Below are positions 1,917 to 20,982 of a stretch of DNA of 24,902 nucleotides, one piece after another. Source of the stretch: a virus. The notes beneath the pieces were generated by a model. That model was given only the letters and a program-made list of their open reading frames with translations, made no database searches and was not told where the DNA came from. How positions within the stretch are numbered: the first letter of the stretch is position 1; each line of letters starts with the position of its first letter. The position numbers were made by a program, and so were the translations under genes. The DNA is taken from positions 1-24,902 of the IMG/VR virus record IMGVR_UViG_3300009182_000301. One strand, written 5' to 3'.

Positions 1917-2378
1917 ATGGCTAATGGTGTAACATACGGTATTAATTTTCCTTTTGGTGATTCCTTAACTGGAAAATATCTTAACTTATCTGAAACTCCT
2001 AGTGATGAGATTAAAAATAATTTAATACACTTATTATTAACTCGAAAAGGTAGTAGATATTTTTTACCTGATTTTGGTACAAGATTGTATGAGTATATTT
2101 TTGAACCATTAGATGGGCCAACATTTAATGATATTGAATCGGAAATTAAAGATTCTGTGGAAACATATATACCGAACTTATTGATAACATCGATAAGGGT
2201 CACCGCTCTATCATCTGAAGAAGCGGGTCCATATGTAACAACAGAAGGAAACGTTGTAAATACACAATTAACTATACCAGGATTGGCAACTAAAGAATAT
2301 ACTGCTAAAGTAAGAATTGACTATCAAATAACAAATGATGTGTTTAACTCAAGTAGTTTTGTAATAATTAATATATAA
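1917..2378 (+). CDS. GPW/gp25-family baseplate wedge protein
   Basis: At 153 aa this is the size expected for the GPW/gp25 family (T4 gp25, P2 gpW). These proteins form part of the wedge core that joins the baseplate to the tail sheath and tube. Visible signs are an N-terminal GINFPFGDSL segment, then a helix and LLLTRKGSRYFLPDFGTRL, matching the family core in which a conserved Gly-Arg and PDFG-type turn precede the FEP segment (FEPLDGPT). A beta-rich C-terminus follows, typical of T4-like versions. The ATG at 1917 sits 5 nt after a TATTTAT box. The gene is followed after one base by the gp6-like gene, the same pairing seen in many myoviruses, which supports both calls. Confidence 0.9.
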   Translation: MANGVTYGINFPFGDSLTGKYLNLSETPSDEIKNNLIHLLLTRKGSRYFLPDFGTRLYEYIFEPLDGPTFNDIESEIKDSVETYIPNLLITSIRVTALSSEEAGPYVTTEGNVVNTQLTIPGLATKEYTAKVRIDYQITNDVFNSSSFVIINI

Positions 2379-2379
2379 G

Positions 2380-4218
2380 ATGGCAAACAAACAAATATCA
2401 TATACAACAAGGGACTTTCAAAATATAAGACAAGAGTTAGTAAATTTTGTTAAAGCGTATTACCCTGAGTTAGTTCAAAATGTTAATGATGCGGCAGTTT
2501 TTTCAGTTTTTTTAGACCTTAATGCTGCAGTTACAGATAATTTACATTATCACATTGATAGAGGTATACAAGAAACTGTATTACAATATGCCCAACAGAG
2601 TTCATCAATATATAACATCGCAAGAACATACGGACTTAAAATTCCTGGACAAAGACCGTCAGTTGCTTTAGTAGATTTTTCAATTGTCGTTCCTGCTGAT
2701 GGGGATAAAGAAAATATTAAATATTGTGGAATATTAAGACGAGGTTCACAAGTATATGGTGCAGGACAAGTTTTTGAAACTGCGAGTGACATAGATTTTT
2801 CAAAAGAAACAAATAGTGAAGGTTTTAGAAATAGAACTAAAACACCTATTCAAAACGCAAATGGGATAACAATAAATTATAGAATTACTAAAAGAGAACC
2901 TGTTGTTAATGGTATCACTAAAGTGTTTAGAAAGACAATTACTACCTCTGAGTCAAGACCATTTTTAGAATTGTTTTTACCTGAAAAAAATGTTTTAGGG
3001 GTTACAAGTGTTTTATTAAAAGATGGACTAAACTACAATAATGTTCCGTCTGTTGAAGAATTTTTAGGTCTAAACAATAGATGGTATGAGGTTGATGCGT
3101 TGGCACAAGATAGAATATTTGTTGAAGACCCAACAGGTTCACAGAGTGCTGCTGGAAAAAAAGTTGGAAAGTATCTTCAGACAAGTAATAAATTTATAAC
3201 TGAATATACTCCACAAGGATTTTTAAAAATGACATTTGGTGGAGGAAGTCAGTCAACAGATGAACTCTTAAGAGAGTTTGCTAGAAATGGGACACCTTTA
3301 GATTTATCTAAATATTCAAATAACTTATCATTAGGGTCAACAATTACTCCAAATACAACACTATTTGTACAATATAGAATTGGTGGTGGATTGGGTACTA
3401 ATTTAGGTACAAGTGTTATTAACCAAATAGGTACTATCAATTTCGCGGTTAATGGACCAAATCCATCAATTAATAGTTCAGTTATTAATAGTATTTCTTG
3501 TACTAATGTCACTGCGGCTATTGGTGGAGCTAACGTTCCGACTGTTGAAGAAGTTAGAAACTTAATTGGATTTAACTTTTCTTCTCAAAACAGAGCGGTG
3601 ACAATTAATGATTATAATGCGGTTTTAAGAAAAATGCCATCACAATTTGGGGCACCTGCGAAAGTTGCAATAACTGAAGAGGATAATAAAATTAAAGTTA
3701 AAATGTTAACTTTTGATGACCAAGGCAAACTAAGTTCAAATGTATCAAGTAGTTTGAAAACAAATGTTTCAAATTATCTTTCAAATTATCGAATGATTAA
3801 TGATTATATTTCGGTTGAAAGCGCTGAGGTTATTGATTTAAAACTTGAGATTAGTGTGGTATTAGATTCAACACAAAATCAAGGAACTGTTGTTACTAAT
3901 ATAGTTAATACTGTAGATACTTTCTTTAGTCCTTTAAATAGGAGTATGGGTGAAAATGTTTATATATCCGAGTTAAAAAGATTAATACAATCATTAAACG
4001 GTATTTTATCTATCAGTGAAATAAATGTATTCAATTTAGTCGGAGGTCAGTACTCTTCAAATCAAACATCACAAGCGTATAGTGATAGTACAACAAAACA
4101 AATTGGTTTGATTAACGAAACATTATTTGCCACACCATCACAAATTTATCAAATTAGATTTCCAAATAAGGATATTACTGTAAGTACTTTAAATTTAAGT
4201 ACTGTCAACTTCTCTTAA
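2380..4218 (+). CDS. gp6/baseplate J-like wedge protein
   Basis: This 612-aa protein is close in length to T4 gp6 (about 660 aa), the wedge protein whose dimers form the inner ring of the contractile baseplate. The N-terminus (SYTTRDFQNIRQEL, then YYPEL and an LDLNAAVTDNLHYHIDR segment) is the usual start of the T4-like gp6/J family. Near residues 385-425, VRNLIGFNFSSQNRAVTIND is followed by DYNAVLRKMP, the conserved baseplate-J element with its Asn-Arg-Ala-Val-Thr core. The remaining C-terminal third (ISVVLDSTQNQG, then ELKRLIQSLNGI) fits the final beta-alpha domain. The start ATG is one base after the gp25-like stop, so the two are probably co-translated. No Shine-Dalgarno is seen. Assignment to the family is strong; equivalence to T4 gp6 is by context. 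Confidence 0.9.
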   Translation: MANKQISYTTRDFQNIRQELVNFVKAYYPELVQNVNDAAVFSVFLDLNAAVTDNLHYHIDRGIQETVLQYAQQSSSIYNIARTYGLKIPGQRPSVALVDFSIVVPADGDKENIKYCGILRRGSQVYGAGQVFETASDIDFSKETNSEGFRNRTKTPIQNANGITINYRITKREPVVNGITKVFRKTITTSESRPFLELFLPEKNVLGVTSVLLKDGLNYNNVPSVEEFLGLNNRWYEVDALAQDRIFVEDPTGSQSAAGKKVGKYLQTSNKFITEYTPQGFLKMTFGGGSQSTDELLREFARNGTPLDLSKYSNNLSLGSTITPNTTLFVQYRIGGGLGTNLGTSVINQIGTINFAVNGPNPSINSSVINSISCTNVTAAIGGANVPTVEEVRNLIGFNFSSQNRAVTINDYNAVLRKMPSQFGAPAKVAITEEDNKIKVKMLTFDDQGKLSSNVSSSLKTNVSNYLSNYRMINDYISVESAEVIDLKLEISVVLDSTQNQGTVVTNIVNTVDTFFSPLNRSMGENVYISELKRLIQSLNGILSISEINVFNLVGGQYSSNQTSQAYSDSTTKQIGLINETLFATPSQIYQIRFPNKDITVSTLNLSTVNFS

Positions 4219-4278: not shown

Positions 4279-7200
4279 ATGCCAAAGTCATATAGAATAC
4301 GTACCCAATTAGGTATTAACCAAAATATTCCTGTTAAGATACCTATAGTTTTAGAACAAAATTTTGATACATTAGAAATTTTGTCTTTGGCTATTCGTCC
4401 TGACGATATCTACATTAGAAGTTGTGCGGATTATGGTGTTGTTTGTGGTAGAATATTTTGTAATAATGGTTTTGGTATCCCTAACGCAAGAGTTTCTGTA
4501 TTTATTCCAATCGAGGACATAGATACTCAAAATGACTATATTGCTTCATTATATCCTTATAAAAGTTTTACAGATATTAATGATGATGGGTATAGATATA
4601 ATCTTTTACCTTATACTCAATCACACTCAGGTCACGTCCCTACTGGTACTTTTCCTGAACGTTTAGATGTTTTAACTGATAAACCACTTATTCAGGTTTA
4701 CGAAAAATATTACAAGTTTACAGTTAAAACTAATGAGTCGGGTGACTACATGATTTTTGGTCTCCCATTGGGACAACAAACTTTATTTATGCAAGTTGAC
4801 CTTTCAGACATTGGTGAGTTCTCGTTAACTCCCCAAGATTTGATAAGAATGGGGTTGGCGACTGAGAGTACCGTTAATGGTTCAAAATTTAAATCATCAA
4901 CAAATTACGCTGAGTTACCACAAATTGTGACAGTTCAAAAAACGGTTCAGATTGAACCATTCTTTGGTGAACTTGAGATTTGTAATTATAACATTGCTAG
5001 AGTTGACTTTGATTTAACATCTGAGAATAATGTTAAACTTGAACCTACGGCAGTTTTTATGGGTTCAATAATATCTACTGATGATACTCAAAAAGTTGGT
5101 AAGAACTTTAAATTTTTAAATCAAACACAATCAGCGTGTAAAGTTAAAAGGACTGCTGGTGAATTATGTACCATGACTACAGGTCCTGGACAGATAATTG
5201 CTCTGAGACAAACAATCTTTAATGATAAGGATGGTAGACCAATTTTAGAACAAGCTCAGTTAGACAATGACGGTAAAGTTATTGACGAAAATGGGGTGTG
5301 GGTGTTAGAAGTACCTATGAACTTGGACTATGTGTATACCGATGAGAATGGTGTTAAAAAAATAAGTAGTGACCCTAAGTTAGGGGTACCAACAAGGGGT
5401 AAATATCGATTTAAAGTTAAGTGGTCACAATCACCCGCTTTAAGTGACCCAACCAAGAGAGCGTATTTTTTATTACCAAACATTAAAGAAAGAGGATGGA
5501 ATGACCCATTTACTGACCCAATATCATTAGCTTTTAGTGAATTTGATTTTACCGATAGTGGTCAGTTACCTGATAGTGATTTGGTTACGGCGACACTCAC
5601 AGTTAACGAAAGTGATATTTTTAGGATTAAAACGGTACAGAATGTTAGAGATTTAACAATTACTGACCCTAATGGTAACCCTTATCTCAGTCAATTATTT
5701 AGAGAAGTCGGGACTTATACATTACAATTTTATAGAGAAGACCCTGCGGCCCAATATCTTTTTACATTTTATAATATTCCTTTTAACAGATTTATGTTGG
5801 AAGGTTCTTACGCTTTTAGTTTAGATTGGAATGATTATGCGGTACCTGATGAGGCAATTAATTGTAGAGATACATTCTATGATATATCGTATAATAAGGT
5901 ATATACTACAACTCAGTTTATTGATAGATATCAGGGTAGTAGATACGCTTGGAATACTGTTGGTATTAAAAGAATTACTGATACAAGTTGTCAGGGTGAC
6001 TATAATACATTTCCAACTAACGATGCTTTTTATAGGTTTGATTTTATTTATTTAATCATCTCTTTTTTCTTAAATCTATTTAAATTTATTTTTATAGCTC
6101 TTTTATTTGTTATTCATGTGTTGGCATTTTTGTTTGTGACAATATTGCCGGCAACAATGACATTTCTTATAGGATTTTTTTTATACCAATGTGCTTATGA
6201 AATTATTGGTGTTGCTGCGGCTTTAGCTAATGTCCCTCCAGCAGTTGCACTTGCGGTTAATCACGGAATAAAGGCATTATTATGGTTATCGGGTTCGGTT
6301 ACTTTAGCATTAATTTATGATGATATTAAAAGAATTGCTAAGAAACTTAGAAATGTTACATTACCTTTAGTCCTTTATACTGATGACGGATGTGAAAGAT
6401 GTAAATGTAATTCAAGTACTGAAATTGACTCAACTTACAATGGACCCTCAATTTCATTTCCTCAAGTGGATTTTGATTTACAAACATCTTATTTAATTAA
6501 TAGTACATCAAATGCTTTATATAATGGGATACCTGTAGAATCAATCAATGTTGTTAGTCAAATATTTACAGGTTCGGTTGATATTAATATTAAAAGATTC
6601 CCAATTCAACCAACATATTATTTAGATTCCGCAAACTCACAATATGTTTCAACTGGTGAATATTATTCAACAACGGCATTACCACCTTCTGAGTTATATA
6701 ATTTATTTAATACTAAATCAAAATATTTTAATAACGTAACTGATTTTGGAAATGGTTCTGAACTTGGATGGAATCAAATAAAGGTGAAATGGTTTCCTAA
6801 TGAAAATATAGGTGTTAACGATTTCCATTATGATAATGTTATAATTTTGGTATTAGATAAAACTGCTCCTGATTACTCTTTAGGACAGTTAATTTCATTC
6901 CAAGATGATACTTTAAGCGGTGACTTAAATCGAAATGTTACGACTGGTACTACAATATTCCCACCATCATTAACAGTTACATATGCTAATCCTAACTCTC
7001 CGTTAGGCCAGGGAACGGGTGATTTAGAAACAACATATATTGTACCTATTTTATCTTCTACAACATCTGTTGATAGGATTACACCATTTGCATCAGATGT
7101 CGAATATTTCCAAGTTATTACAGGGATGACGATAGGCCAATATGTTACATTGGCAAACCCAAGTTCGGATGAATTAAGTTTTGGTGTTAGATACTTACAA

Positions 7201-9822
7201 CGAGTTAATAATACTCAATCTTATTTGAATATACCTTATATTAGAATTATGCCAAATAAGGCAACGGGTATTATTGAAGCTGGGTCAACACGTTTAACAA
7301 ACTTTATTACTGATTATGATGATTATAAAATAGTTATTTTACAACGTGGTATTGATGTACATTCGCCTAGAATTCCTCAAAAAATTGATTTAAGTAGAAT
7401 ATTTGGTTTTAACTCATATTCAAATAACTTTAATAATTCTTTAATTGTTGAAGGTGAATTTAAAATGAATTATCCTATTACAGGTACAATTTATTCTGAC
7501 AGACATAATGAAATTTTAGACAACACTTCAAATTTGTTTAAACAAAGTTATGCATTTACTTATAATCAAAATGATTATGTTACTAATGGGAATACGACAT
7601 TACCGTCATATTATTCATCGGTAGACGCGACAAGTTTTAATTCCAGTAATGGACAAATTGTATTTGCTGGAGATAACATATTAAATTACTTCGATTCAAT
7701 AGGGATGGGTATAAATATGTTTGGTAATAACATACTTGATAATCTAACAACATCATTTAGTCAAAATGTTTTAACTATAAATTCTAATAATAGTTGTAGC
7801 GAAAATAATTCCAGTTATAAGGTAAATACCTTCACAAAAATATTTACTTCACCTCAAACATATTACGTCCCTTATGGGGTTGGTACTGATAACTTTTCTT
7901 TTTATACCGCTCAGAAAGATAATCGATGTGCAGGTGTTAAAAATGTATTAGGTTATCAGGGTAATGAAGTTATTGATGGAGCTTCTTTCATGAGAAGTAA
8001 TTTTTCATATAACGGAACAAATGGAATTGTAACAATACCATTTGGAATTGATGTGGAAGAGTTTACTGATGGTACAGGAGTTGTTACCACAACTCAAGAA
8101 AAATTAATTGGTACCCCAAGATTTTTCTCAACACAATATGGGACAGGTATGACTACCTCTTTAAATGATGGATTGAACATTGTGTTTAGGTCTGATAGGT
8201 TACCAACGTCAACAACAATTCAAACTGCAAAATCAAATAGTTTCTTATTACACCAAAATAGTCAATTTGCAATTTTTAAAATAAATGATGAAGGTGAATC
8301 AACTCAAGTTATTGCAATTGATACTACCCCACAAACAAATAATGAAAGTTCGCTAATATTTACACCACCAAGTTATACTCAAGTATTGAATAGTTTAAGC
8401 AATTGTTCGGAATCGGTTCCATTATCTTGTTATGGTGTTAATTCTAATGGGGAACCATATATTAAACCTAATTGTGTTCAAGATTATATTGACCCATCAG
8501 GTAAAGAATTATTTTTTCTTCAGGGTAAAGGATGTTATAATATTGTGTCAAGACCGTTGTTAACTATTGGTCAAGATGTAAGAAATTTAGTTGAGTGGAT
8601 GACACGACTTAATTTAAATTTAGCGTTGTGTTTTGATGTTACATCTCATAATTTTACTAACCAATATATTAATGGGACATTATATGCGTATCCGTTCCAA
8701 AACCAAAGAATATTTGATTTAAATAATAATCCGTCAAGTTTATATTGTACTGATTTAATTTATTTACATGACCAAACAAGTAATTTCTATTATAGAAGTA
8801 GTCCCTTTCAAGTTTTAGACCAAAATAATCTTGAAATAGGAGGTTTTATTGGTAAAAAGAACAACAGAGGAAATGCAACTAATACTGGTAATAATAAATT
8901 TTTAGGTTCACCAACAACACTATTAGATTTAGGTCCTAAGTCAGATTTTATACAAGAGTTGGTATATAACGATGATTATGACGGATATATCGTTTCTAAA
9001 GTTAAATCGACATCATTCCAAGGAATTAATGATGTATTAAATTTATTTATTTTAAGTAGATTAATTAACACTTCATTTAATCAACAACTTATACCAACTT
9101 CAGATAGTCCAGATGAAGGTAGTAACGACCCTTCAGTAAAGGCTTTATTTTCAAATACAAGATGGAATAATAATGGAGCAACTTTAGTTCCTGGATATAT
9201 TGATGGTGATTATTCGCAAATGATTGCTATTAATTCACAATTTGGTATGACGGAATTTTCACCTGAAGCTTATACTTCCGATTCAGTATTTTTTGGGCAG
9301 ATTAATAACTTTCCAGTATTTGGGTTATTACTTACAGGTGATACTCAAGATAGAGATTATATCTCTCCAAGAAGAACTAATTGGAATAGTTCAGGTACAT
9401 TGATAAATAATCAACAAATAATTGATTGTTGGTTTACTAATATTAAAACTAATTCTCAGGAAGTTCCATTTTACCAATGGGGTTTAAATTATTGTGGTGG
9501 GCCAACTACAAATATATTTGGTAGTCAATCAAACAATTATAGTACCGCTGATGAGGCGTTTTTCTCTTACAAATACCAAAGTTTAGACAGATTAAATCCT
9601 GCGTCGCAATATTTCCAAAATGACCAAAGTGATGGTTATTACGTTAGAGGTACTCAAATTAATTTTGACAATAACGGAGTACCAACCGAATTAACACCAC
9701 AAAATTTCGAACAAAAGTTTTTAGTGGGAGCACCGTTTTACTTCTATTTTGGATTGAAGAAAGGTGGAAGCGCTATGGATGTGTTCATAACAAAATATAT
9801 TAATACTGAAACAAATGTCTGA
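4279..9822 (+). CDS. Giant baseplate/tail structural protein with internal transmembrane block
   Basis: At 1847 aa this is the largest complete gene in the window. I cannot name it; position after gp25-like and gp6-like genes suggests a baseplate component. Residues about 50-180 look like a carboxypeptidase-regulatory-like beta-sandwich (GVVCGRIFCNNGFGIPNARV, later a NESGDYMIFGLPLGQQTL stretch). Residues about 588-685 are strikingly hydrophobic, with several likely membrane helices (for example FIYLIISFFLNLFKF, FIALLFVIHVLAFLFV, ATMTFLIGFFLY, then a GIKALLWLSGSVTLALIY helix), closed by a basic KRIAKKLR. A cysteine-rich CERCKC motif follows at about 705-710. The rest is long, Asn/Ser/Thr-rich and beta-like. 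The N-terminus (SYRIRTQLGINQNIPVKI) looks like an assembly tail. It ends in TGA, overlapping the next start by 8 nt. The membrane block suggests a possible role in envelope penetration, which is inference. Confidence 0.8.
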   Translation: MPKSYRIRTQLGINQNIPVKIPIVLEQNFDTLEILSLAIRPDDIYIRSCADYGVVCGRIFCNNGFGIPNARVSVFIPIEDIDTQNDYIASLYPYKSFTDINDDGYRYNLLPYTQSHSGHVPTGTFPERLDVLTDKPLIQVYEKYYKFTVKTNESGDYMIFGLPLGQQTLFMQVDLSDIGEFSLTPQDLIRMGLATESTVNGSKFKSSTNYAELPQIVTVQKTVQIEPFFGELEICNYNIARVDFDLTSENNVKLEPTAVFMGSIISTDDTQKVGKNFKFLNQTQSACKVKRTAGELCTMTTGPGQIIALRQTIFNDKDGRPILEQAQLDNDGKVIDENGVWVLEVPMNLDYVYTDENGVKKISSDPKLGVPTRGKYRFKVKWSQSPALSDPTKRAYFLLPNIKERGWNDPFTDPISLAFSEFDFTDSGQLPDSDLVTATLTVNESDIFRIKTVQNVRDLTITDPNGNPYLSQLFREVGTYTLQFYREDPAAQYLFTFYNIPFNRFMLEGSYAFSLDWNDYAVPDEAINCRDTFYDISYNKVYTTTQFIDRYQGSRYAWNTVGIKRITDTSCQGDYNTFPTNDAFYRFDFIYLIISFFLNLFKFIFIALLFVIHVLAFLFVTILPATMTFLIGFFLYQCAYEIIGVAAALANVPPAVALAVNHGIKALLWLSGSVTLALIYDDIKRIAKKLRNVTLPLVLYTDDGCERCKCNSSTEIDSTYNGPSISFPQVDFDLQTSYLINSTSNALYNGIPVESINVVSQIFTGSVDINIKRFPIQPTYYLDSANSQYVSTGEYYSTTALPPSELYNLFNTKSKYFNNVTDFGNGSELGWNQIKVKWFPNENIGVNDFHYDNVIILVLDKTAPDYSLGQLISFQDDTLSGDLNRNVTTGTTIFPPSLTVTYANPNSPLGQGTGDLETTYIVPILSSTTSVDRITPFASDVEYFQVITGMTIGQYVTLANPSSDELSFGVRYLQRVNNTQSYLNIPYIRIMPNKATGIIEAGSTRLTNFITDYDDYKIVILQRGIDVHSPRIPQKIDLSRIFGFNSYSNNFNNSLIVEGEFKMNYPITGTIYSDRHNEILDNTSNLFKQSYAFTYNQNDYVTNGNTTLPSYYSSVDATSFNSSNGQIVFAGDNILNYFDSIGMGINMFGNNILDNLTTSFSQNVLTINSNNSCSENNSSYKVNTFTKIFTSPQTYYVPYGVGTDNFSFYTAQKDNRCAGVKNVLGYQGNEVIDGASFMRSNFSYNGTNGIVTIPFGIDVEEFTDGTGVVTTTQEKLIGTPRFFSTQYGTGMTTSLNDGLNIVFRSDRLPTSTTIQTAKSNSFLLHQNSQFAIFKINDEGESTQVIAIDTTPQTNNESSLIFTPPSYTQVLNSLSNCSESVPLSCYGVNSNGEPYIKPNCVQDYIDPSGKELFFLQGKGCYNIVSRPLLTIGQDVRNLVEWMTRLNLNLALCFDVTSHNFTNQYINGTLYAYPFQNQRIFDLNNNPSSLYCTDLIYLHDQTSNFYYRSSPFQVLDQNNLEIGGFIGKKNNRGNATNTGNNKFLGSPTTLLDLGPKSDFIQELVYNDDYDGYIVSKVKSTSFQGINDVLNLFILSRLINTSFNQQLIPTSDSPDEGSNDPSVKALFSNTRWNNNGATLVPGYIDGDYSQMIAINSQFGMTEFSPEAYTSDSVFFGQINNFPVFGLLLTGDTQDRDYISPRRTNWNSSGTLINNQQIIDCWFTNIKTNSQEVPFYQWGLNYCGGPTTNIFGSQSNNYSTADEAFFSYKYQSLDRLNPASQYFQNDQSDGYYVRGTQINFDNNGVPTELTPQNFEQKFLVGAPFYFYFGLKKGGSAMDVFITKYINTETNV
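6039..6345 (+). other. Segment encoding clustered transmembrane helices inside the giant structural gene
   Basis: About 100 codons (residues roughly 588-690) encode four or so hydrophobic helices rich in Phe, Leu, Ile and Val, broken by short polar or Pro-containing turns and ending in the basic KRIAKKLR. The frame is continuous with both flanks, and no stop or start context suggests a separate gene or a frameshift artefact. The flanking protein is polar and beta-like. Confidence 0.75.
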
Positions 9823-11662
9823 TTTAGGAAGTAATAGATATATTAAAGGTTCTTTAAGATATAAGGGAGCAACTGATAATGACATTAGTTTACAAATCCC
9901 AATTGAAAATACTATTAAAGAACTTGAAGAATATTCAAGAAATACAAATTTAAATTTAGCTCAATTATTTGATACTGAAAGACAAGCTTCAACAATTTTT
10001 GTACCTACTTGTAAGTTTAATATGGTATTTGAAAATGCTTATGAAGGTGTTGCTGGTAAGTTGGTTAACAATCAAAATTACCCGTATCCACCATTTAATA
10101 ATAATTTGTATTATTCTAACGTTTTAGTAGATAAACAAGACCAAATTAATTTTAATTGTTTAACACCTATTGCTTGGAAAGGATTCCCACAGTACGATGA
10201 ATTTAAATTTATTAGAACTGATTACGGAATACCGGGATGGACAGTTGGCGCAAACAAACATATTAAATTTCAAGCAAGTGAAACCACATTTTATAATTGG
10301 TATTTTCATTTAACTTACGCTTTTAGTTCAACAACTGCGACGACTATGCAGTATCAAACAGGTACGTCAACGACATATAGTTGGACTGCGGGTGATGGTA
10401 TACCATTTATAATGAATAAAACAAATGATGGTGACGGAAAACCAATGTTGAGGTTTACTTGTCCATGTCCACACGGATTAACTCCGGGTGAATATGTGTC
10501 ATTAAGTTTCCAAACAGGTGGTAATTGTAATAACATACAGGCGTTTGAAGTTTATAATTTAGGTAATGGTTTTGTCGATTCTGAACTTACAGTTTTTGAT
10601 GTCTATGATGTTGGGTATCAATGCAACGTTTTTACAAACGGACTTCAAGGGACTTTTAAACGAGTATTAGACATAAATAATATTGAGGAAACAACTTCAA
10701 AATATTATGTTAGATTACACAAGATATTAACACCATATCGACAAGCGATAATTAATAACTCAGGTTTTGAAAATAATGCTTTAAGGACAAAGAAAAAGTT
10801 TGAATCAAAATCTTTACAACCACCATACTTAAATAATCAAGGAAGAGTTTCGGTTAAAGAAGATAGTTTATCTTATAATGTTTCCTTCCAAGAATACCTT
10901 GATTTAAAAGGAATGATTGATAATCAAAGAAGACCCGTATCGGAAATATTTGTTACAGTTATTAACAGAGGTTATTTTGGTTGGTTTAATAAACCTAACG
11001 GTACAAGTAATGTTTCGTTGAGACAAGGTTGGGATTTTAATTTAGGACCTCAGTTAAATAACTGGTGGTCTAATCAATTTTCATTAACGAATATACAAAC
11101 TAACTTTTGGAACAATCCTAATACCTTTGATAATTACGAACAAAACGCAACACCATTAGTTTCACAAAGAGCATTTTATTATAATAGGAATTTAAATACT
11201 GGAGATACAATTTACGGAGATTATTGTGAATGGAATGATTTTGACCAAAAAGAAAGAGTAATATCTGATTATTACCATAAGTTTACTTTTAATCCTGATA
11301 ATTTTTCTATTGGACCTAACATACAAAATCAACTTGGATATTACTATAAACCTCATAATAGTTTAACTGTTAAGGAATATTCTCCATATGTTGAACAGAG
11401 TGATGAGGGTAACCCACAGAATTTTAGAATTGAGAATTTCCCAAATCACGCTTATTACTCTGTAAGAAATAATGATTTTAGATGGAGAGATTTATATCCA
11501 TATGGTTTTATAGATGAAACTAATGTTGGCGTTGATTATCCATTTATGAATGGTAGACATTATTTATATGATAATTTCTTTTTTAAAATAATACCTGAAG
11601 GTACTAACGTGTTTAACACTAGTATTTCAGTTAACGACCCAATAATTGACGGATGTGAATAA
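9815..11662 (+). CDS. Baseplate-associated structural protein (unknown family)
   Basis: This 615-aa protein is not one I can name. It starts at an ATG that overlaps the end of the giant gene by 8 nt, so translation is probably coupled. Composition is rich in Asn, Tyr, Phe and Thr with few Lys clusters, as expected for a beta-rich virion protein. Residues about 205-250 hold a short Cys-containing segment (FTCPCPHGLTPGEYVSLSF). The part around residues 340-390 (VSVKEDSLSYNVSFQEYLDL, then NQRRPVSEIFVTVINRGYFGWF) resembles a stretch shared by predicted structural proteins of large phages. By position it could be the functional counterpart of T4 gp8, but no homology to gp8 is claimed. It ends in TAA, overlapping the next gene by 8 nt in the same layout as at its own start. 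Confidence 0.75.
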   Translation: MSDLGSNRYIKGSLRYKGATDNDISLQIPIENTIKELEEYSRNTNLNLAQLFDTERQASTIFVPTCKFNMVFENAYEGVAGKLVNNQNYPYPPFNNNLYYSNVLVDKQDQINFNCLTPIAWKGFPQYDEFKFIRTDYGIPGWTVGANKHIKFQASETTFYNWYFHLTYAFSSTTATTMQYQTGTSTTYSWTAGDGIPFIMNKTNDGDGKPMLRFTCPCPHGLTPGEYVSLSFQTGGNCNNIQAFEVYNLGNGFVDSELTVFDVYDVGYQCNVFTNGLQGTFKRVLDINNIEETTSKYYVRLHKILTPYRQAIINNSGFENNALRTKKKFESKSLQPPYLNNQGRVSVKEDSLSYNVSFQEYLDLKGMIDNQRRPVSEIFVTVINRGYFGWFNKPNGTSNVSLRQGWDFNLGPQLNNWWSNQFSLTNIQTNFWNNPNTFDNYEQNATPLVSQRAFYYNRNLNTGDTIYGDYCEWNDFDQKERVISDYYHKFTFNPDNFSIGPNIQNQLGYYYKPHNSLTVKEYSPYVEQSDEGNPQNFRIENFPNHAYYSVRNNDFRWRDLYPYGFIDETNVGVDYPFMNGRHYLYDNFFFKIIPEGTNVFNTSISVNDPIIDGCE

Positions 11663-13915: not shown

Positions 13916-14821
13916 GTGGCAACAGGTAATTACGGAACAATAAGACTAGCGGATGTAAGCCCCGCTGATGTTGAAATAATAGTTCATTATACGGCATCGC
14001 GCGACCAAACTGAAAATTTCACTCTTTTCACGATACCAAACTCTAATCTTATACCATATTTCAATAACGCGAATACAGGTGGTAATACAAATCAAATATT
14101 AGGTGGTTTATATAATTTAAATTTACCTGCTAATCAATTTAATAACTTAGGGATTTACACATTAATTTTAAGACCTGCTCAAATTAAAACTGTAATTACT
14201 GATTGTGGTATTTTAAGTTCTTTACCTAATGTAAAAGGGATAGTAATTGATTTAACAAATGTCCCATCAAATTTTTTAACAAACTTTGCGAATCAAGGAT
14301 TAACTGGATTTAGAGTTGAATATTACGACCCAACAGATAATACAAAAATCCCTAATTTTTACAGAATAATTACTTCTAATTTTTATTGTGAACCTGTTAC
14401 TCAAAACTTAACAAACACACAAGACAAATCTATTAGATACATATATTCTCAAGGTTCATCTAATTTAGTATTTTGTACTTTATCACCATCATCTGCACCA
14501 ACAAATAGACCAAACGCAATACCTAACATTGGGCAACCAAATCAAAATATTGTAATTACAAATACATTCTTTAATCCAATATCATTGGAAGTTGAAATTG
14601 TTGAACATGATATCTCAACATTGGCGATTGCTCTTTACGGTAATCAAACTAAATCAATTGATGATGGAATTTATACTATCTACGATACTTCTAATAACAT
14701 ATACAAACAATATAACTTATATGAAATTAGAGACCAATTAAACGACTTGTTATATGAAGTTAGACAAGACAGAGGGGACAATATCGATTTCACTAAAAAC
14801 TTTCAAACTATTATTGTTTAA
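13916..14821 (+). CDS. Phage structural protein of unknown function (301 aa)
   Basis: I do not recognise the family. The frame starts at GTG 13916 (encoding MATGNYGTIRLADVSP); no in-frame ATG lies nearby, and the upstream gap holds in-frame stops. The protein has no membrane segment or signal peptide and is mixed alpha and beta in appearance. Residues about 85-125 (RPAQIKTVITDCGILSSLPN and on) could form a small Rossmann-like or beta-sheet core. The last 70 residues (ALYGNQTKSIDDGIYTIYD, then a YEIRDQLNDLLYEVRQDRG helix) look conserved and could be an oligomerisation or baseplate-docking part. It is joined by a TAATG overlap to the gpI/gp7-like gene, so the two products are probably made in similar amounts and may interact. 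Confidence 0.72.
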   Translation: MATGNYGTIRLADVSPADVEIIVHYTASRDQTENFTLFTIPNSNLIPYFNNANTGGNTNQILGGLYNLNLPANQFNNLGIYTLILRPAQIKTVITDCGILSSLPNVKGIVIDLTNVPSNFLTNFANQGLTGFRVEYYDPTDNTKIPNFYRIITSNFYCEPVTQNLTNTQDKSIRYIYSQGSSNLVFCTLSPSSAPTNRPNAIPNIGQPNQNIVITNTFFNPISLEVEIVEHDISTLAIALYGNQTKSIDDGIYTIYDTSNNIYKQYNLYEIRDQLNDLLYEVRQDRGDNIDFTKNFQTIIV

Positions 14822-17775
14822 TGGTAAAATATAAATGTCCACCACAAGGGCCTACAGGTGCTAGTACATTCTCCGATAATATTGTCGGGTTACAACTTGT
14901 GCAAGGTGGTGGATTAACCAATGCTAATTTTGATTTTACTACAACGGTTGTTGAGAAAGTTAATCGAAGTTTTGATATTGGTACATTCTCAACTCCTATA
15001 TCGTTAAATGACTTAGGTATTGATTTAGGAAAATCATTTCAAATTTTTCAAAACAATTTTAAAGTAACTCCAAATTTTGATAGTTCAAAAATTACCAATT
15101 TTACAGCTTATGGTTCTTTAACAAAAAGATTTGAATCGTCAATAATTAATATTATTAATTATTTTCCAGCGGCTTTAGAAATAATTAATTTGAGAGAAGG
15201 TTATACCACAGGTAATACCGCTCAAAATATTACATTTTATTCAAATGAAAATGTTACAGAATTAGATTTAGATATAACTGCAATAAGAAATCCTTTTGGG
15301 ATAAATTTTACTGTAAATGCGACTAGTGACATTAATAGTTTAGAGTTCTCAATATCAAAATATAGAAATCTTAAAGAAACATATCCGGCATATGTTTTAA
15401 TAGTAAATGGGGGACAATATCCTTTATCATATTTATTTCCATCACAAAGTTTAACTGCCGGTACATTAACAATACAAGTTGATGGAAATCCTTTTTCAGG
15501 TAACTCAACATCGGTTGATACTATAGTTATTAGACCAAATGATGTTATTGTTAATGAAGTTTTTAATCTTAATTTAGATGAGGTTGACGAGTTCCTTTTA
15601 TATAGATATGTTACTCCAATATATACTGCTCAGTTTCAAATACCAACTGAGGCGGATAATGGTAATATTTTTACAAGATATCAAAATGTTACTTGGCCTT
15701 TAGATGGGTCATGGAACTTAGATATAAGAACTGAAAATTTCTCTTCTTATATTCAAACTTTAAATCAAATAGGAAATGAATTTGATAGTCAACAAACTGA
15801 TTTATTATCAAGATTTTATGTGACAGATGCTTTTCAAGAATTTGATACTCCTGATAAAAAAGTCGAAAAAACTTTAAGAATATATGGAAGAAGTTTTGAT
15901 GAAAGTAAAAAATACATAGACGCACTTTCATTCATGACTTCTGTAAATTATAATGTTGGTAATGATATACCATCTAAGTTGTTGCCAAATTTGGCGGAAA
16001 CCTTAGGATGGTCAACAAACATATCACCAATTACAAATGTCGATTATCTTACTTCCGTTTATGGAACAACTGAAAACGCTTTTCCTGGGTATTCAACAAG
16101 TCAAACTATTGATGATTTAAACAGTCAATTTTATAGGAATTTAATTTTAAATTCAGCGTATTTGTATAAGTCAAAAGGTACAAGAAAGGCAATTGATTTT
16201 TTAATGAATTATATTGGAGCTCCCGAGGCGTTAATAGAGTTTAATGAAAATGTTTATGTTGCTGATAGTCCTATTGATATTGAAAGATTTAATGAGTTAT
16301 TCCAACAAATTTCAGGTGGGGTATTCATACCTGAAACACCGTCATTAGACCCTTTAAACATATATAGTTTCCAGGGTAACCCATTTACTGCGTATACCTC
16401 AACAACAACAATAGAAACCGTTACGACAACAATAGATGACTATCCAGTTGATAGTGAAGGATATCCAAAACCAAGAGCAAATACTGCTAACATGTTTTTT
16501 CAAAAAGGGGAAGGATGGTTTGAACAAACACCTGAACATAGGTCTCCTGAAGAATTAATTATAACTACTAATTCATTTACTGGACAAAACTTAAATGTTC
16601 AAACACAATTAGAACCATTTACATATGGTCAAAAATATTTAGAAACATTTAGAGATTTTCCTTTCTTAAATTACGGATTTTCACTTAAAAAAGTTAATGA
16701 TAACAAAAAGAGCTGGAGTAATTTACAACCACCATTACGAAAAAATACTGACGATTTATTTGACGCTTATTATACAGTTAGTGATGATAGGTTAGTATTA
16801 AATGTTAAGAACGTTGATTTGTTTTTAAATCCTGCTCAAGCGTTGGTTTATGATGTTTGGTATCTATCAAACACACAAAACTATCCTATACCATCATCAG
16901 GGTTGTCTAATCCATATCCACAAGTTGGTGGGATAGATTGGACGTTTATTAATCCACAACCACAATATGAAACCTTCTTTGAGTTTTATAAAACTTTTTG
17001 GAGTAACATGATTAATGTGAGAAATAGACAATTCTCCTCTGATGGTAAGACAAGTGGATATCCTACATTACAATCTTTATTTTGGAAATATCTTACTATG
17101 TATCAAGATGTTGGAATCCAAAATGATAATTTTAATTATCAAAACATGATTGAATATATTAATGGTTTGGGTGATTCATGGATACGATTGGTTGAACAAT
17201 TTATGCCGGCAACAACTATTTGGAATACAGGTACTAAGTTTGAGAACTCTATTTTCCATAGACAAAAGTTTGTTTATAGAAGACAAAGAATGTGTCAAAC
17301 TGTCTCCGAAAACACCGTAGGTCCAATTAGTAATGGTACTGTTGAAGGAACTTTAGGGGCCCCATCTGTAACTTATCCAATTTTATTTGTTGACCAAAGT
17401 TATGTTATTGATGCGTATAATATGACATTACAAGATTGGATAACTCAAAATGCTTGTAATCCAAATCCAAATAACGTATCAGTTTATTTTGGGTTTTCAT
17501 TTACTATTAATGGAGTTGACTTTGTTTATAATGGAAATCCTCAAACTAATTTTCATGGAGCAACATTAACAAACCAACAATGGTATGATATTGTTATTGC
17601 AGGATTTAGTGAAATACAAAGTCAGTTATGGTTATATGGGATTAATGCTACTTATGATTATTCATATCCTGTTTTATATTATATTTTAGAATCAAATAAC
17701 GTTACGTTTTTTGAAACCGCTCCAACGTCTACTGACATAAACATTATAGTTAATTTAACAACAAGCTGTCAATAA
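14821..17775 (+). CDS. gpI/gp7-like baseplate wedge protein, extended
   Basis: This 984-aa protein carries a core that resembles the P2 gpI tail-protein family, whose fold is part of T4 gp7, the third conserved wedge protein beside gp6 and gp25. The key region is residues about 350-480: a helical stretch (KVEKTLRIYGRSFDESKKYI), then LLPNLAETLGWSTN, then FYRNLILNSAYLYKSKGTRKAI and DFLMNYIG. In gpI this same order is a leucine-rich LAWELGVD-type element, then an R-N-A/S-L/I-H/Y-R/K-KGT motif and a closing helix. The N-terminal 300 residues are beta-rich. A Thr-rich linker (TSTTTIETVTTT) lies near residue 530. Near 784, SWIRLVEQFMPATTIW begins a second conserved-looking block, and the final 130 residues form an extra domain. 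Length is close to T4 gp7 (about 1030 aa). The family call is from pattern only. Confidence 0.72.
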   Translation: MVKYKCPPQGPTGASTFSDNIVGLQLVQGGGLTNANFDFTTTVVEKVNRSFDIGTFSTPISLNDLGIDLGKSFQIFQNNFKVTPNFDSSKITNFTAYGSLTKRFESSIINIINYFPAALEIINLREGYTTGNTAQNITFYSNENVTELDLDITAIRNPFGINFTVNATSDINSLEFSISKYRNLKETYPAYVLIVNGGQYPLSYLFPSQSLTAGTLTIQVDGNPFSGNSTSVDTIVIRPNDVIVNEVFNLNLDEVDEFLLYRYVTPIYTAQFQIPTEADNGNIFTRYQNVTWPLDGSWNLDIRTENFSSYIQTLNQIGNEFDSQQTDLLSRFYVTDAFQEFDTPDKKVEKTLRIYGRSFDESKKYIDALSFMTSVNYNVGNDIPSKLLPNLAETLGWSTNISPITNVDYLTSVYGTTENAFPGYSTSQTIDDLNSQFYRNLILNSAYLYKSKGTRKAIDFLMNYIGAPEALIEFNENVYVADSPIDIERFNELFQQISGGVFIPETPSLDPLNIYSFQGNPFTAYTSTTTIETVTTTIDDYPVDSEGYPKPRANTANMFFQKGEGWFEQTPEHRSPEELIITTNSFTGQNLNVQTQLEPFTYGQKYLETFRDFPFLNYGFSLKKVNDNKKSWSNLQPPLRKNTDDLFDAYYTVSDDRLVLNVKNVDLFLNPAQALVYDVWYLSNTQNYPIPSSGLSNPYPQVGGIDWTFINPQPQYETFFEFYKTFWSNMINVRNRQFSSDGKTSGYPTLQSLFWKYLTMYQDVGIQNDNFNYQNMIEYINGLGDSWIRLVEQFMPATTIWNTGTKFENSIFHRQKFVYRRQRMCQTVSENTVGPISNGTVEGTLGAPSVTYPILFVDQSYVIDAYNMTLQDWITQNACNPNPNNVSVYFGFSFTINGVDFVYNGNPQTNFHGATLTNQQWYDIVIAGFSEIQSQLWLYGINATYDYSYPVLYYILESNNVTFFETAPTSTDINIIVNLTTSCQ

Positions 17776-17776
17776 T

Positions 17777-19921
17777 ATGTCATTTTTTTATAACATATCA
17801 GTAACTGGAGATTGTACTAACAGTAATTTAGGTAGTTTTAGTATTAATTTTACAAGTGGTAATACTCCTTATATTGTAAATTGGTTAACCCCATTATACA
17901 CTTCGGCGTCTACAACGGGAAATTACTCACTTACAGGGTTAAGTGCGGGTACATATCAATTTTATGTAAATGATTCGTCAGTTCCGGTTAATCAATCTTC
18001 AGGAGTTATACAAGTTTATATCACTTCAGCTAGTACTCTATTCATACAAGATGTTCAAAATACATCTTGTGGGTTGTCAAACGGTTCATTGACGGTTAAT
18101 ACATATACCAATTACGGTACTAATGAAATAACATTATTTAAAGATAATATTCAATATAGTACGGCATCAGTTACAAGTGCCAATCAATATACATTTATTA
18201 ATTTACCTGAAGGTGTTTATTACGCGACTTGTACAAACTATGGAGGATGTTATGGTAAATCTGAGAATGTTGTGCTTTACAATACAAGCTCTATGGATTT
18301 TGGGTTTTATGTTGTTAATAATCCGGCATGTTCACTTACAAATGGTAAGTTATTTGTTACAGGTGTTACAGGAATACCACCATACACATACGTTTGGTCA
18401 TCAAATATTAGTGGTTCTCCAACCACATCATCTGTTACGGGTTTAACTACAGGTAACTATTTTTGTACCGTTACTGATTCACAAGGATGTTCGATAACAA
18501 AAACAACGACAGTATTAAATGCTGACCCGATAGGGTTAATAACGTATACATTAGTTTCACCAACATGTACAGGTTCAACAGGTTCAATTACTTATTACAT
18601 ATCAGGTGGAACAGGGCCTTATTTTTATTTGTTAAGTAATGGGGACTCGTTAGTTAGTTATGACCAATTTTTAACTTTCAGTGGTTTATCTGCTGGTAAT
18701 TATACGTTAGAAGTTACTGATGTTGCTTTATGCACTGCAACATTTAATGTTGTATTACAAACACCAAATACTTTCTTTGTTGTCTCTGAGTCAATAACTG
18801 ATTCGAGTTGTAATAATAATTCAGGTATTTATAGTATTCAGTTACAAGGGGGTACAACACCTTACACTTACAACTTTACAAACAATAGTGGTTATACATT
18901 AATTAATTATGTTAATATACCAAACCAATCATTTGGTAATTTAGCTTCAGGTAATTATACCGTAACAATAAATGACGCAACATCGGCTTGTACATACACT
19001 AAAAACTTCTCAATCAATACAAGTTTATCATTTGGAGTTTCAATAAGTGCAACAACAACAAATTGTAGTTTCAATGGTGGTAGTATCTATTTAGAAGTTA
19101 CACCCGTTGTGACGGGATTAACTTATACCTATAGTTTATCTAATGGTGTAACATCAATACAAACTATATCAACGGCATATACGTTTTCTAATCTAACTGC
19201 CGGGGTTTACGATTTAATTGTTACTGACTCAAACTACTGTAGCCAAAGTTATTCGGTTAATGTTATTGATACTAGTCCTATTAATGTTCTTTTATATAGC
19301 ACAAATTGTGGGAATGGTAGTGGGGGGACAATAAGTGCTATGGTTAATTATACAGATTTTCCTGTTGATTTAACATGGAGTAGTAATGTTAATGGACAGA
19401 CAGGGGTATATCTTACAGGATTAACTGCGGGAACATATACGTTATCTGTAAGCGCTGAAACAGGATGTGTGACGACTAAAAGTAAGACAATAACATGTAA
19501 TCCATTAATTAATTTTTCAAGAACTCAACCTGTTAAAGTTTCAACACCAACTTACATACCTACAAAAACATATGATTTCAAAAATATGTTATTTACAGGA
19601 TATGCTAATTTAGTTAAAGGCCATGAAGATTGCAAATTAAATTACGCTCAATTTAATTGTGATATTGAAATAACTGGTACGACATATTCCTCAGTATTTT
19701 ATGTGTCACCTAATTTAAATTCAATACCATCAATCGATAATTTTATAACGGCTATTGAGTCACTACTCACTTTAATACCTAATTTACAAAACACTGAAAT
19801 TAATCCTGACACAAATACTATTGTTATTGAATCCAAAGTTGTTGGAGGTGTTGAAGTATATAAAGACGAACTATTAACAATTAGTGTTAGAGTAGTTTAT
19901 AATATTTCATGTAGGACTTAA
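17777..19921 (+). CDS. SprB-type repeat tail protein
   Basis: The 714-aa product is made of about seven repeats of roughly 80 residues, covering residues 1-573, plus a C-terminal domain. Each repeat has the SprB-repeat pattern: a Cys in an NxxC segment, a G-S/K-I/L beta strand, a PPYTY- or TPYTYN-like turn followed by W or F, a GLSAGTY/N-Y/V strand, a V-T/D-D/S segment and a second Cys near the end (as in TDSQGC). This family is known mainly from cell-surface adhesins of Bacteroidota, including SprB of gliding motility. The C-terminal 140 residues (from NFSRTQPVKVSTPTYIPTKT) lack repeats and may be the docking domain. No signal peptide is present, as fits a virion protein assembled in the cytoplasm. 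It begins one base after the gpI-like gene. A receptor-contacting role is likely but inferred. Confidence 0.82.
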   Translation: MSFFYNISVTGDCTNSNLGSFSINFTSGNTPYIVNWLTPLYTSASTTGNYSLTGLSAGTYQFYVNDSSVPVNQSSGVIQVYITSASTLFIQDVQNTSCGLSNGSLTVNTYTNYGTNEITLFKDNIQYSTASVTSANQYTFINLPEGVYYATCTNYGGCYGKSENVVLYNTSSMDFGFYVVNNPACSLTNGKLFVTGVTGIPPYTYVWSSNISGSPTTSSVTGLTTGNYFCTVTDSQGCSITKTTTVLNADPIGLITYTLVSPTCTGSTGSITYYISGGTGPYFYLLSNGDSLVSYDQFLTFSGLSAGNYTLEVTDVALCTATFNVVLQTPNTFFVVSESITDSSCNNNSGIYSIQLQGGTTPYTYNFTNNSGYTLINYVNIPNQSFGNLASGNYTVTINDATSACTYTKNFSINTSLSFGVSISATTTNCSFNGGSIYLEVTPVVTGLTYTYSLSNGVTSIQTISTAYTFSNLTAGVYDLIVTDSNYCSQSYSVNVIDTSPINVLLYSTNCGNGSGGTISAMVNYTDFPVDLTWSSNVNGQTGVYLTGLTAGTYTLSVSAETGCVTTKSKTITCNPLINFSRTQPVKVSTPTYIPTKTYDFKNMLFTGYANLVKGHEDCKLNYAQFNCDIEITGTTYSSVFYVSPNLNSIPSIDNFITAIESLLTLIPNLQNTEINPDTNTIVIESKVVGGVEVYKDELLTISVRVVYNISCRT
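17786..19497 (+). repeat. About seven diverged SprB-type repeat units
   Basis: Units of about 240-260 nt start near 17786, 18042, 18295, 18537, 18774, 19033 and 19282 (boundaries approximate). They are alike in protein pattern (paired Cys, PPYTY-like turn, GLSAGTY-like strand) but well diverged in DNA, so the array is old, unlike the near-perfect repeats in the two genes downstream. Confidence 0.75.
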
Positions 19922-19947: not shown

Positions 19948-20982
19948 ATGAGTTTAATTACAATTGATAACATATCAGGTGTTCCACCATATCAAATATA
20001 TGTTTGTGACATTTTCCAATTTAATTGTCAGTTTGTCGACACTTTTGTAAATTACATTCCACCGGCAGTTAGTTTTCCAATACCGAGTGGATATACAAGT
20101 GCTCCCAAATTATTAATTAAAATAGTTGATTCTACGGGATGTGTGTTTACACAAGAATATATGTGTGTGACACCGACACCAACTCCGAGTATTACTCCGA
20201 GTATTACCCCAACGATTTCTTTAACACCATCACATACACCAACACCGAGTATTACACCATCACATACACCGACACCGAGTATTACTCCAACTATTACACC
20301 GACTAAGACCGTAACTCCAAGTATTACACCTACTAAGACCGTAACTCCAAGTATTACACCTACTAAGACCGTAACTCCAACTGTTACAACAACTCCTACA
20401 CCTACACCAACACCTGAACCTTTATTATATGGTTATTTATTTATTGAGCCTTATTCAGGTTCATCGAGTATTGGTTCTTATATGAGTTCACTTGGGTCGA
20501 GTTTCTATGGATTCACAAACACAACACAACCAAGTAGTTCGGCAAGTACGTTTGACTCTGATATGAATCGATATGTTAATTTTTCAGGGTGGACAACAGG
20601 ATTATTTCCGTCGATTATCAAACAGACGATACCAATCACGACAAGTGGTTTTGACTCATATGGTAATCCAAAAATTGCTTATAATTTTTTAACTACAAAA
20701 GTTGCTAAAAATACTGTAGGTTCTAAAGCATGGTACACATGGATAATACCTGTGGTATATACAAATTACAAGTATCAAGTTGAAATTGATTTGGGGATTG
20801 TTAATCCAAATGTCTTTACAAGTGTGAAAATGGAACCAACAATTTACGCTAACACATTCACTTATACTGGTGGTACAATTGTTAAGACAACATATAGAGT
20901 TTACACCACATACCCATCAAATACGTTTGAATTGGATAATACTTATGACCTTTATTTTAGAGGAAGTAAGATTGATATATAA
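19948..20982 (+). CDS. Tail/fibre protein: SprB-like unit, Thr/Pro linker, C-terminal domain
   Basis: The 344-aa protein has three parts. Residues 1-73 look like one SprB-type unit ([13 protein letters not shown] at the front, [13 protein letters not shown] at the back), linking it to the preceding repeat protein. Residues about 74-157 are a linker of Thr, Pro and Ser with repeats such as [19 protein letters not shown] and [10 protein letters not shown]. Residues about 158-344 form a compact domain (from [13 protein letters not shown], including [11 protein letters not shown] and a KAWYTWIIP strand, ending [11 protein letters not shown]) of unknown function. Thr/Pro linkers of this sort are stiff and extended, and in secreted proteins they are often glycosylated. 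The design suggests a spacer that holds a binding domain away from the baseplate. It is followed after 9 nt by the fibre gene. Confidence 0.75.
20167..20418 (+). repeat. Thr/Pro-coding tandem repeat tract with 30-bp units
   Basis: A tract built of ACxCCx codon patterns. It includes two 30-bp copies at 20224-20253 and 20254-20283 that differ at one base, and 30-bp copies at 20302-20331 and 20332-20361 that are identical, with a partial third copy matching for 19 nt from 20362. Unit length is a multiple of three, so copy-number change keeps the frame. Confidence 0.9.

Follow-up and report, generated by a model that had tools for sequence, protein, structure and literature searches.

A membrane-like hydrophobic block is a universal feature of a large baseplate-operon protein in an uncultured lineage of contractile-tailed phages

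INTRODUCTION

When the tube of a contractile-tailed phage has penetrated the outer layers of the host, the DNA still has to cross the inner membrane, and how it does so is an old question. Several siphophage tape measure proteins carry transmembrane segments, and a single hydrophobic segment is present in T4 gp29. In the T4 baseplate, gp7 is part of the soluble wedge, yet the T4 GenBank record (L162:7061-10159) states for this protein that the “C-terminus is predicted integral membrane domain,” which refers to a protein with a single hydrophobic segment at about amino acids (aa) 882 to 904 and a Wimley-White value of 10.7. This indicates that hydropathy alone can mislead. A contractile injection system of Anabaena is anchored to the thylakoid membrane; its Cis13 component has a putative transmembrane helix, an extension of Cis12 touches the membrane, and truncation of the Cis13 helix releases the machines from the membrane (PMC8894136). 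The literature was also searched for phage baseplates that contain membrane helices or iron-sulphur sites, and no matching report was found.

The DNA analyzed here, referred to as the “window,” is a stretch of 24,902 nucleotides of an uncultured virus (IMGVR_UViG_3300009182_000301). It encodes a protein of 1,847 aa, labeled TMprot, with a hydrophobic block at aa 589 to 691 (positions 6043 to 6351; Table 1). This block and its conservation are genuine, extend throughout a large lineage of uncultured phages, and have apparently not been described before. TMprot resembles T4 gp7 as a large protein encoded by a gene next to that of gp6 and with an annotated hydrophobic segment, but gp7 has one such segment instead of three or four and no CxxCxC framing. 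The Anabaena machine likewise has membrane-binding baseplate or fiber parts, but it is a cellular machine, and Cis13 is a tail-fiber-like protein ending in a single C-terminal helix, whereas TMprot contains an internal multihelix block framed by four cysteines.

RESULTS AND DISCUSSION

TMprot is encoded in a baseplate operon of contractile-tailed phages

Table 1. Positions of the genes and of the TMprot features in the window
Feature	Position	Strand	Remarks
gp25-like baseplate wedge protein	1917..2378	+	PF04965, E 7e-11; phrog_261
gp6-like/Baseplate_J wedge protein	2380..4218	+	PF04865, E 7e-8; phrog_219
TMprot, 1,847 aa, baseplate-operon protein with membrane-like block	4279..9822	+	Uninterrupted ORF
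N-terminal beta-sandwich region, ~aa 50-175	4426..4803	+	Weakly CarboxypepD_reg-like; in the most conserved part of TMprot
Cys571	5989..5991	+	Ahead of the block; invariant, 54/54 representatives
N-x-x-P-x-N-D motif, aa 576-582	6004..6024	+	P579 and D582 invariant
Core hydrophobic run, aa 589-622	6043..6144	+	Almost charge-free in 54 representatives; polar stripe 595, 599, 602, His613
Predicted helix, aa 589-650	6043..6228	+	AF2
Predicted helix, aa 656-691	6244..6351	+	AF2; ends in KRIAKKLR
CERCKC, aa 705-710	6391..6408	+	After the block; all three cysteines (CxxCxC) family-invariant
615-aa protein	9815..11662	+	Always 3' of TMprot; no known family
Two unknown operon proteins, 374 and 364 aa	11646..13864	+	Without Pfam/PHROG family
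Unknown operon protein, 301 aa	13916..14821	+	Mean column identity 76%; no match in phages or genomes
984-aa operon protein	14821..17775	+	Homologue of a 1,265- to 1,404-aa protein encoded after gp6 in phages immuto, Mel-JY01, and LR756508

The gene order RNR-(FMN reductase)-gp25-gp6-TMprot-615aa-374aa-364aa-301aa-984aa was found at all loci long enough to show it. The FMN-reductase-like ORF, at positions 1077 to 1844 of the window, is located between RNR and gp25 in some relatives only. The gp6-like protein matched the “baseplate wedge protein” of Flavobacterium phage immuto with a tblastn E value of 2e-34. All six long sister contigs tested carried a sheath gene, the two longest sister contigs a gene for a Gp23-type capsid protein, and a contig of 240 kb encoded sheath, tube, a hub protein of the T4_baseplate family (PF12322), gp32, and a UvsX-like recombinase. 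The presence of sheath, tube, gp25, gp6, Gp23, gp32, and UvsX on the same or sister contigs identifies the lineage as contractile-tailed phages of the T4 superfamily. The first-pass annotation had placed TMprot in the baseplate region of a contractile phage, and this placement is borne out by the gp25-like and gp6-like neighbors and by the sheath, tube, and T4-type hub genes on related contigs.

Nevertheless, TMprot could not be assigned to a known baseplate component. An identity with T4 gp7 would fit the gene position, but the profile comparison by hhalign (A2/A3) gave a probability below 1%, and the role is better matched by the 984-aa protein. The latter was related to its counterparts in immuto, Mel-JY01, and LR756508 with HMM E values of 8e-4, 2e-8, and 6e-4 and hhalign probabilities of 81, 92, and 52%, respectively, and, judged from these profiles, is a better candidate than TMprot for a gp7-type wedge role. 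A direct profile comparison of the 984-aa protein with T4 gp7 did not detect a relationship, and TMprot had no detectable homology to the other T4 baseplate proteins tested.

Tape measure proteins are similar to the proposal made below for TMprot in so far as they store hydrophobic helices in the particle, and these helices presumably extend to the host membrane when infection takes place. They differ from TMprot, which is encoded by another gene, downstream of gp6, and is rich in beta structure. A 665-aa ORF (L163:6676-8670) follows the gene of the T4_baseplate-family hub protein, has relatives of 604 to 685 aa in six contigs, and possibly encodes the tape measure of this lineage. Its product was free of membrane-type segments in those four contigs in which it could be read, and none of the other tail-module ORFs inspected on the 240-kb contig had a comparable hydrophobic segment. 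TMprot itself was rejected as the tape measure, considering its beta-rich composition outside the block, its position 3' of gp6, and the existence of this separate candidate.

The hydrophobic block and the four cysteines are conserved

On the Wimley-White octanol scale (windows of 19 residues, in kcal/mol), the block contains three consecutive strong segments, aa 583 to 601 (11.5), aa 603 to 621 (16.9), and aa 622 to 640 (9.7), followed by a weaker fourth segment, aa 662 to 680 (4.4). A value above 6.5 did not occur in any other ORF of the window. The longest run without D, E, K, or R in TMprot spans 38 residues (aa 603 to 640) and includes the E-free stretch FIFIALL...QCAY. A block of about 100 residues with roughly four hydrophobic helices, as described in the first-pass annotation for positions 6039 to 6345 (about aa 587 to 689), is thus a fair description, and the basic cap (KRIAKKLR, aa 684 to 691, at the end of the block) and the subsequent CERCKC cluster mentioned there are both present in the sequence. 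For a single 19-residue window, the mean Kyte-Doolittle value of 2.98 just exceeded the maximum of 2.95 among the shuffled sequences, so that this test was too weak on its own and a 60-residue window was used instead: its best value of 2.08 compares with 0.81 ± 0.17 (maximum, 1.61) in 3,000 shuffles (z = 7.4).

A query with the single sequence recovered 112 relatives of TMprot from IMG/VR, and a query with the alignment recovered at least 575 among the matches listed (600 stretches); records very near that of the window may be absent from some of the searches. Contigs carrying the family reach 240 kb. With tblastn, the 50,697 deposited phage records contained no match for TMprot or the distant member L088, and the conserved 615-aa and 301-aa operon proteins were also without a match in these records. 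A scan of 84,980 prokaryote genomes found no TMprot relative, which left no co-occurrence there to be used for host assignment, and no cultured phage with a TMprot relative was found in the phage records or prokaryote genomes searched. One metagenome-assembled member, Myoviridae sp. ctPuP5, was found in the BFVD library (A0A8S5LA66; Foldseek E 1.7e-37, 38% identity over 464 aligned columns), where it is deposited as an uncharacterized protein.

In all 54 nonredundant relatives used as representatives, the block exceeds every other part of the protein in hydrophobicity, and the median of the best Wimley-White segment is 15.8 in the block vs 6.5 in the rest of the same proteins. Cys571, Pro579, Asp582, Cys705, Cys708, and Cys710 are invariant (54/54), and the block sits directly 5' of the CxxCxC motif in the full-length relatives among those listed. 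Columns 589 to 622 are nearly free of D, E, K, and R, with the exceptions of 602 (35% charged) and 620 (13%). A polar stripe on one helical face consists of N/S595, S/T/N599, T/K602, and His613, the last a histidine in 50 of the 54 proteins. Positively charged residues are conserved on either side of the core run (K564, R/K585, K/R623); position 623 is basic in about half of the relatives. Conservation of the basic cap is loose, unlike that of the four cysteines.

The hydrophobic segments have transmembrane strength, and this character is kept across the relatives, which is what would be predicted for an integral membrane protein. The membrane-like character proposed in the first-pass annotation extends to the entire family, where hydrophobicity is maintained despite strong divergence. 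Since nearly identical or identical proteins occur on several independent contigs and the block is universal, a local oddity or an assembly artifact can be ruled out. A proline at position 603 or 604 in 30 of the 54 relatives, together with the basic residue at 623, suggests a break or hairpin in the block of many of them. The size of the block ranges from one run of about 35 residues (L087 and L097) to four segments; the number of helices thus differs between relatives and does not fix a count of membrane crossings.

Two relatives deviated in their gene structure. One (L109:2236-10773) encodes 2,846 aa, about 1,000 more than the other members, and retains the block and the CxxCxC motif. In the other (L003:1174-6714), the protein of the window is split into two frames of 807 and 1,042 aa, which is probably an assembly or sequencing frameshift.

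Divergence and selection within the block

The relatives L004 and L005 are about 99% identical over aa 1 to 580, 20 to 45% identical over aa 601 to 680, and return to 75% at aa 701 to 720, and the diverged block remains hydrophobic. Pooled pN/pS ratios were 0.11 for aa 1 to 540, 0.08 for aa 541 to 588, 0.38 for the block, 0.48 for aa 696 to 800, and 0.32 for aa 801 to 1847. By these ratios, purifying selection acts on the block and preserves its character more than the exact residues. Divergence with retained hydrophobicity favors a role facing the membrane, in contact with lipids, over a soluble core with close packing, an argument that is not exclusive to the block because aa 720 to 1270 of TMprot are variable, too. 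Synonymous differences between L004 and L005 rise in the block as well, so that its divergence is likely to result in part from exchange between phages. Identity between these two proteins is 20 to 70% from about aa 600 to 1270 and then mostly about 80 to 95% again; from this pattern, the central region appears as mosaic or fast-evolving.

Structure prediction and the possibility of a soluble bundle

The first half of TMprot was modeled with AF2 as a monomer from 54 sequences (mean pLDDT, 73.7). The two helices of the block (Table 1) had pLDDT values of about 73 to 90, with predicted beta structure ahead of them and low confidence at aa 541 to 587 and 698 to 740, where Cys571, Cys705, Cys708, and Cys710 are located. 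The second half was modeled poorly (pLDDT, 61). TMprot is predicted to be beta-rich outside the block. Foldseek found nothing in the PDB at E ≤ 1e-3 for either half. TMprot belongs to no Pfam or PHROG family, with no PHROG match at E ≤ 1, and no strong match to Pfam, PHROG, or PDB sequence profiles was obtained. In the N-terminal region, 38 of the 54 family members matched PF13620 (best E value, 8e-4), the protein of the window remaining below the curated cut-off.

A soluble bundle core in the predicted structure had been named beforehand as an outcome that would speak against membrane helices. Such a core was not drawn; the model contains two long helices and low-confidence linkers, but a monomer prediction is blind to an oligomeric bundle. 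The helices of the block may indeed never be in a membrane, and three or six copies may bundle as a hydrophobic baseplate core, forming a structural pin. This explanation is rather unlikely and is kept at this level due to the precedent of T4 gp7, a soluble wedge protein with an annotated membrane domain (10.7). The assumption in the first-pass annotation that wedge proteins are soluble agrees with gp7, but the additional assumption that they do not normally contain multi-pass membrane segments is softened by the annotation of this protein. Moreover, AF2 drew a continuous helix of 62 residues instead of membrane-length helices with clear turns, which argues against insertion and for the bundle, and the spacing of three to four residues in the polar stripe at 595/599/602/613 would suit an oligomeric bundle, too. 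On the other hand, the block is far longer and more hydrophobic than the segment of gp7, with its 16.9 segment and two further strong segments, its sequence diverges strongly while hydrophobicity is kept, unlike a tightly packed core, and the number of helices varies between relatives.

Proposed function of TMprot

The explanation that we prefer, although tentatively and with slightly less than even confidence, is that TMprot is a baseplate protein of the virion whose helices enter the envelope of the host in the course of infection. A membrane role of TMprot is likely. The conserved sequence features suggest that the tail tip of the phage is partly inserted into a membrane or resides in one. 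TMprot would be a structural component of the baseplate region in this contractile-tailed, T4-related lineage, presumably as part of the virion, and the beta-rich parts flanking the block would keep TMprot in place within the baseplate. Cys571 and the CxxCxC motif would form a four-cysteine site that clamps the block at its base. This site would probably bind a metal because the phage is assembled in the reducing cytosol. In the free particle, the block would be shielded. Rearrangement of the baseplate, or arrival of the tail tip at the host envelope, could then expose the block and allow it to insert into the membrane, and several copies together might anchor the tail end or help to form a passage for the DNA.

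A more elaborate form of this proposal, which must be regarded as doubtful, envisages helical modules that are arranged as a ring and insert into the membrane, with a four-cysteine site holding each of them; upon contraction, they would dock the tail in the host membrane and form or seal the passage of the DNA. If true, this would be a delivery device with a distribution so far limited to a single abundant lineage of uncultured phages, probably of Bacteroidota.

Instead of acting during infection, the block may anchor the growing baseplate to the inner membrane of the host during assembly and be buried or detached later. Cis13 of Anabaena, with its putative transmembrane helix, provides a precedent for membrane anchoring of a contractile machine (PMC8894136). 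The conserved residues K564, R/K585, and K/R623 fit an orientation with both flanks in the cytoplasm. However, a lytic virion must be released, so that such an anchor needs to be undone, and we know of no membrane-anchored assembly factor that is fused inside a structural protein of 1,847 aa; assembly anchoring is accordingly improbable. Even more so, and with only a slight chance of being correct, TMprot could be a membrane protein outside the particle that acts on the infected cell in takeover or superinfection exclusion and is just encoded in the baseplate operon. The strong local diversity of the block resembles that of surface or exclusion proteins, and there is no homology to known tail proteins. 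This has to be weighed against the invariant place of the gene between gp6 and the other conserved operon genes across loci, a size and a richness in beta structure as usual for tail proteins, and a conserved N terminus without a hydrophobic signal-type segment.

With respect to the passage of DNA across the inner membrane, the importance of TMprot results from the obligate and strongly conserved membrane-type block in a baseplate-operon protein of hundreds of environmental phage contigs and of at least one metagenome-assembled deposited phage. Residues 560 to 720 delimit a piece of 160 residues that is suited to expression and to direct assays of membrane insertion, metal binding, and formation of oligomers.

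Host and lineage

A Shine-Dalgarno-like word preceded only 4 of 147 family starts, which instead had an A-rich stretch at about −12 to −5. In the tail region of the window, the ORF at 17777 to 19921 (714 aa) contains SprB repeats (PF13573), a CarboxypepD_reg match, and a Hoc-like PHROG match, which represents Bacteroidota-type adhesin modules in a phage. Scarce Shine-Dalgarno sites and SprB repeats are known features of Bacteroidota, and from both together we infer that the lineage probably infects Bacteroidota. The moraphages, described in a recent survey, are large phages of aquatic habitats that encode gp25, gp6, the tail tube protein gp19, and a sheath; their predicted hosts are mostly Bacteroidota, and no tape measure was found in them (PMC12619734). 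The TMprot lineage may be the same as or related to them. The nearest deposited relatives according to gp6, capsid, and the 984-aa protein are immuto (vB_FspM_immuto, Immutovirus), Microcystis phage Mel-JY01, and the uncultured phage LR756508. These three differ in having no TMprot counterpart, and the genes after gp6 contain no such block, which makes the block protein a feature of its own lineage.

Two further ORFs follow in the window. That at 19948 to 20982 contains a long Thr/Pro/Ser repeat (SITPSITPT...) and belongs to no known family. The ORF from 20992 to 24900, which runs off the end of the window, contains many near-repeats of “NTxSGxxSTVSGGxxN,” similar to the beta-roll heads of trimeric adhesins, as well as repeated units of “SATTYNNLPSFSGGxITGLTINGNLTVTGNTSLQALTATTISATT.”
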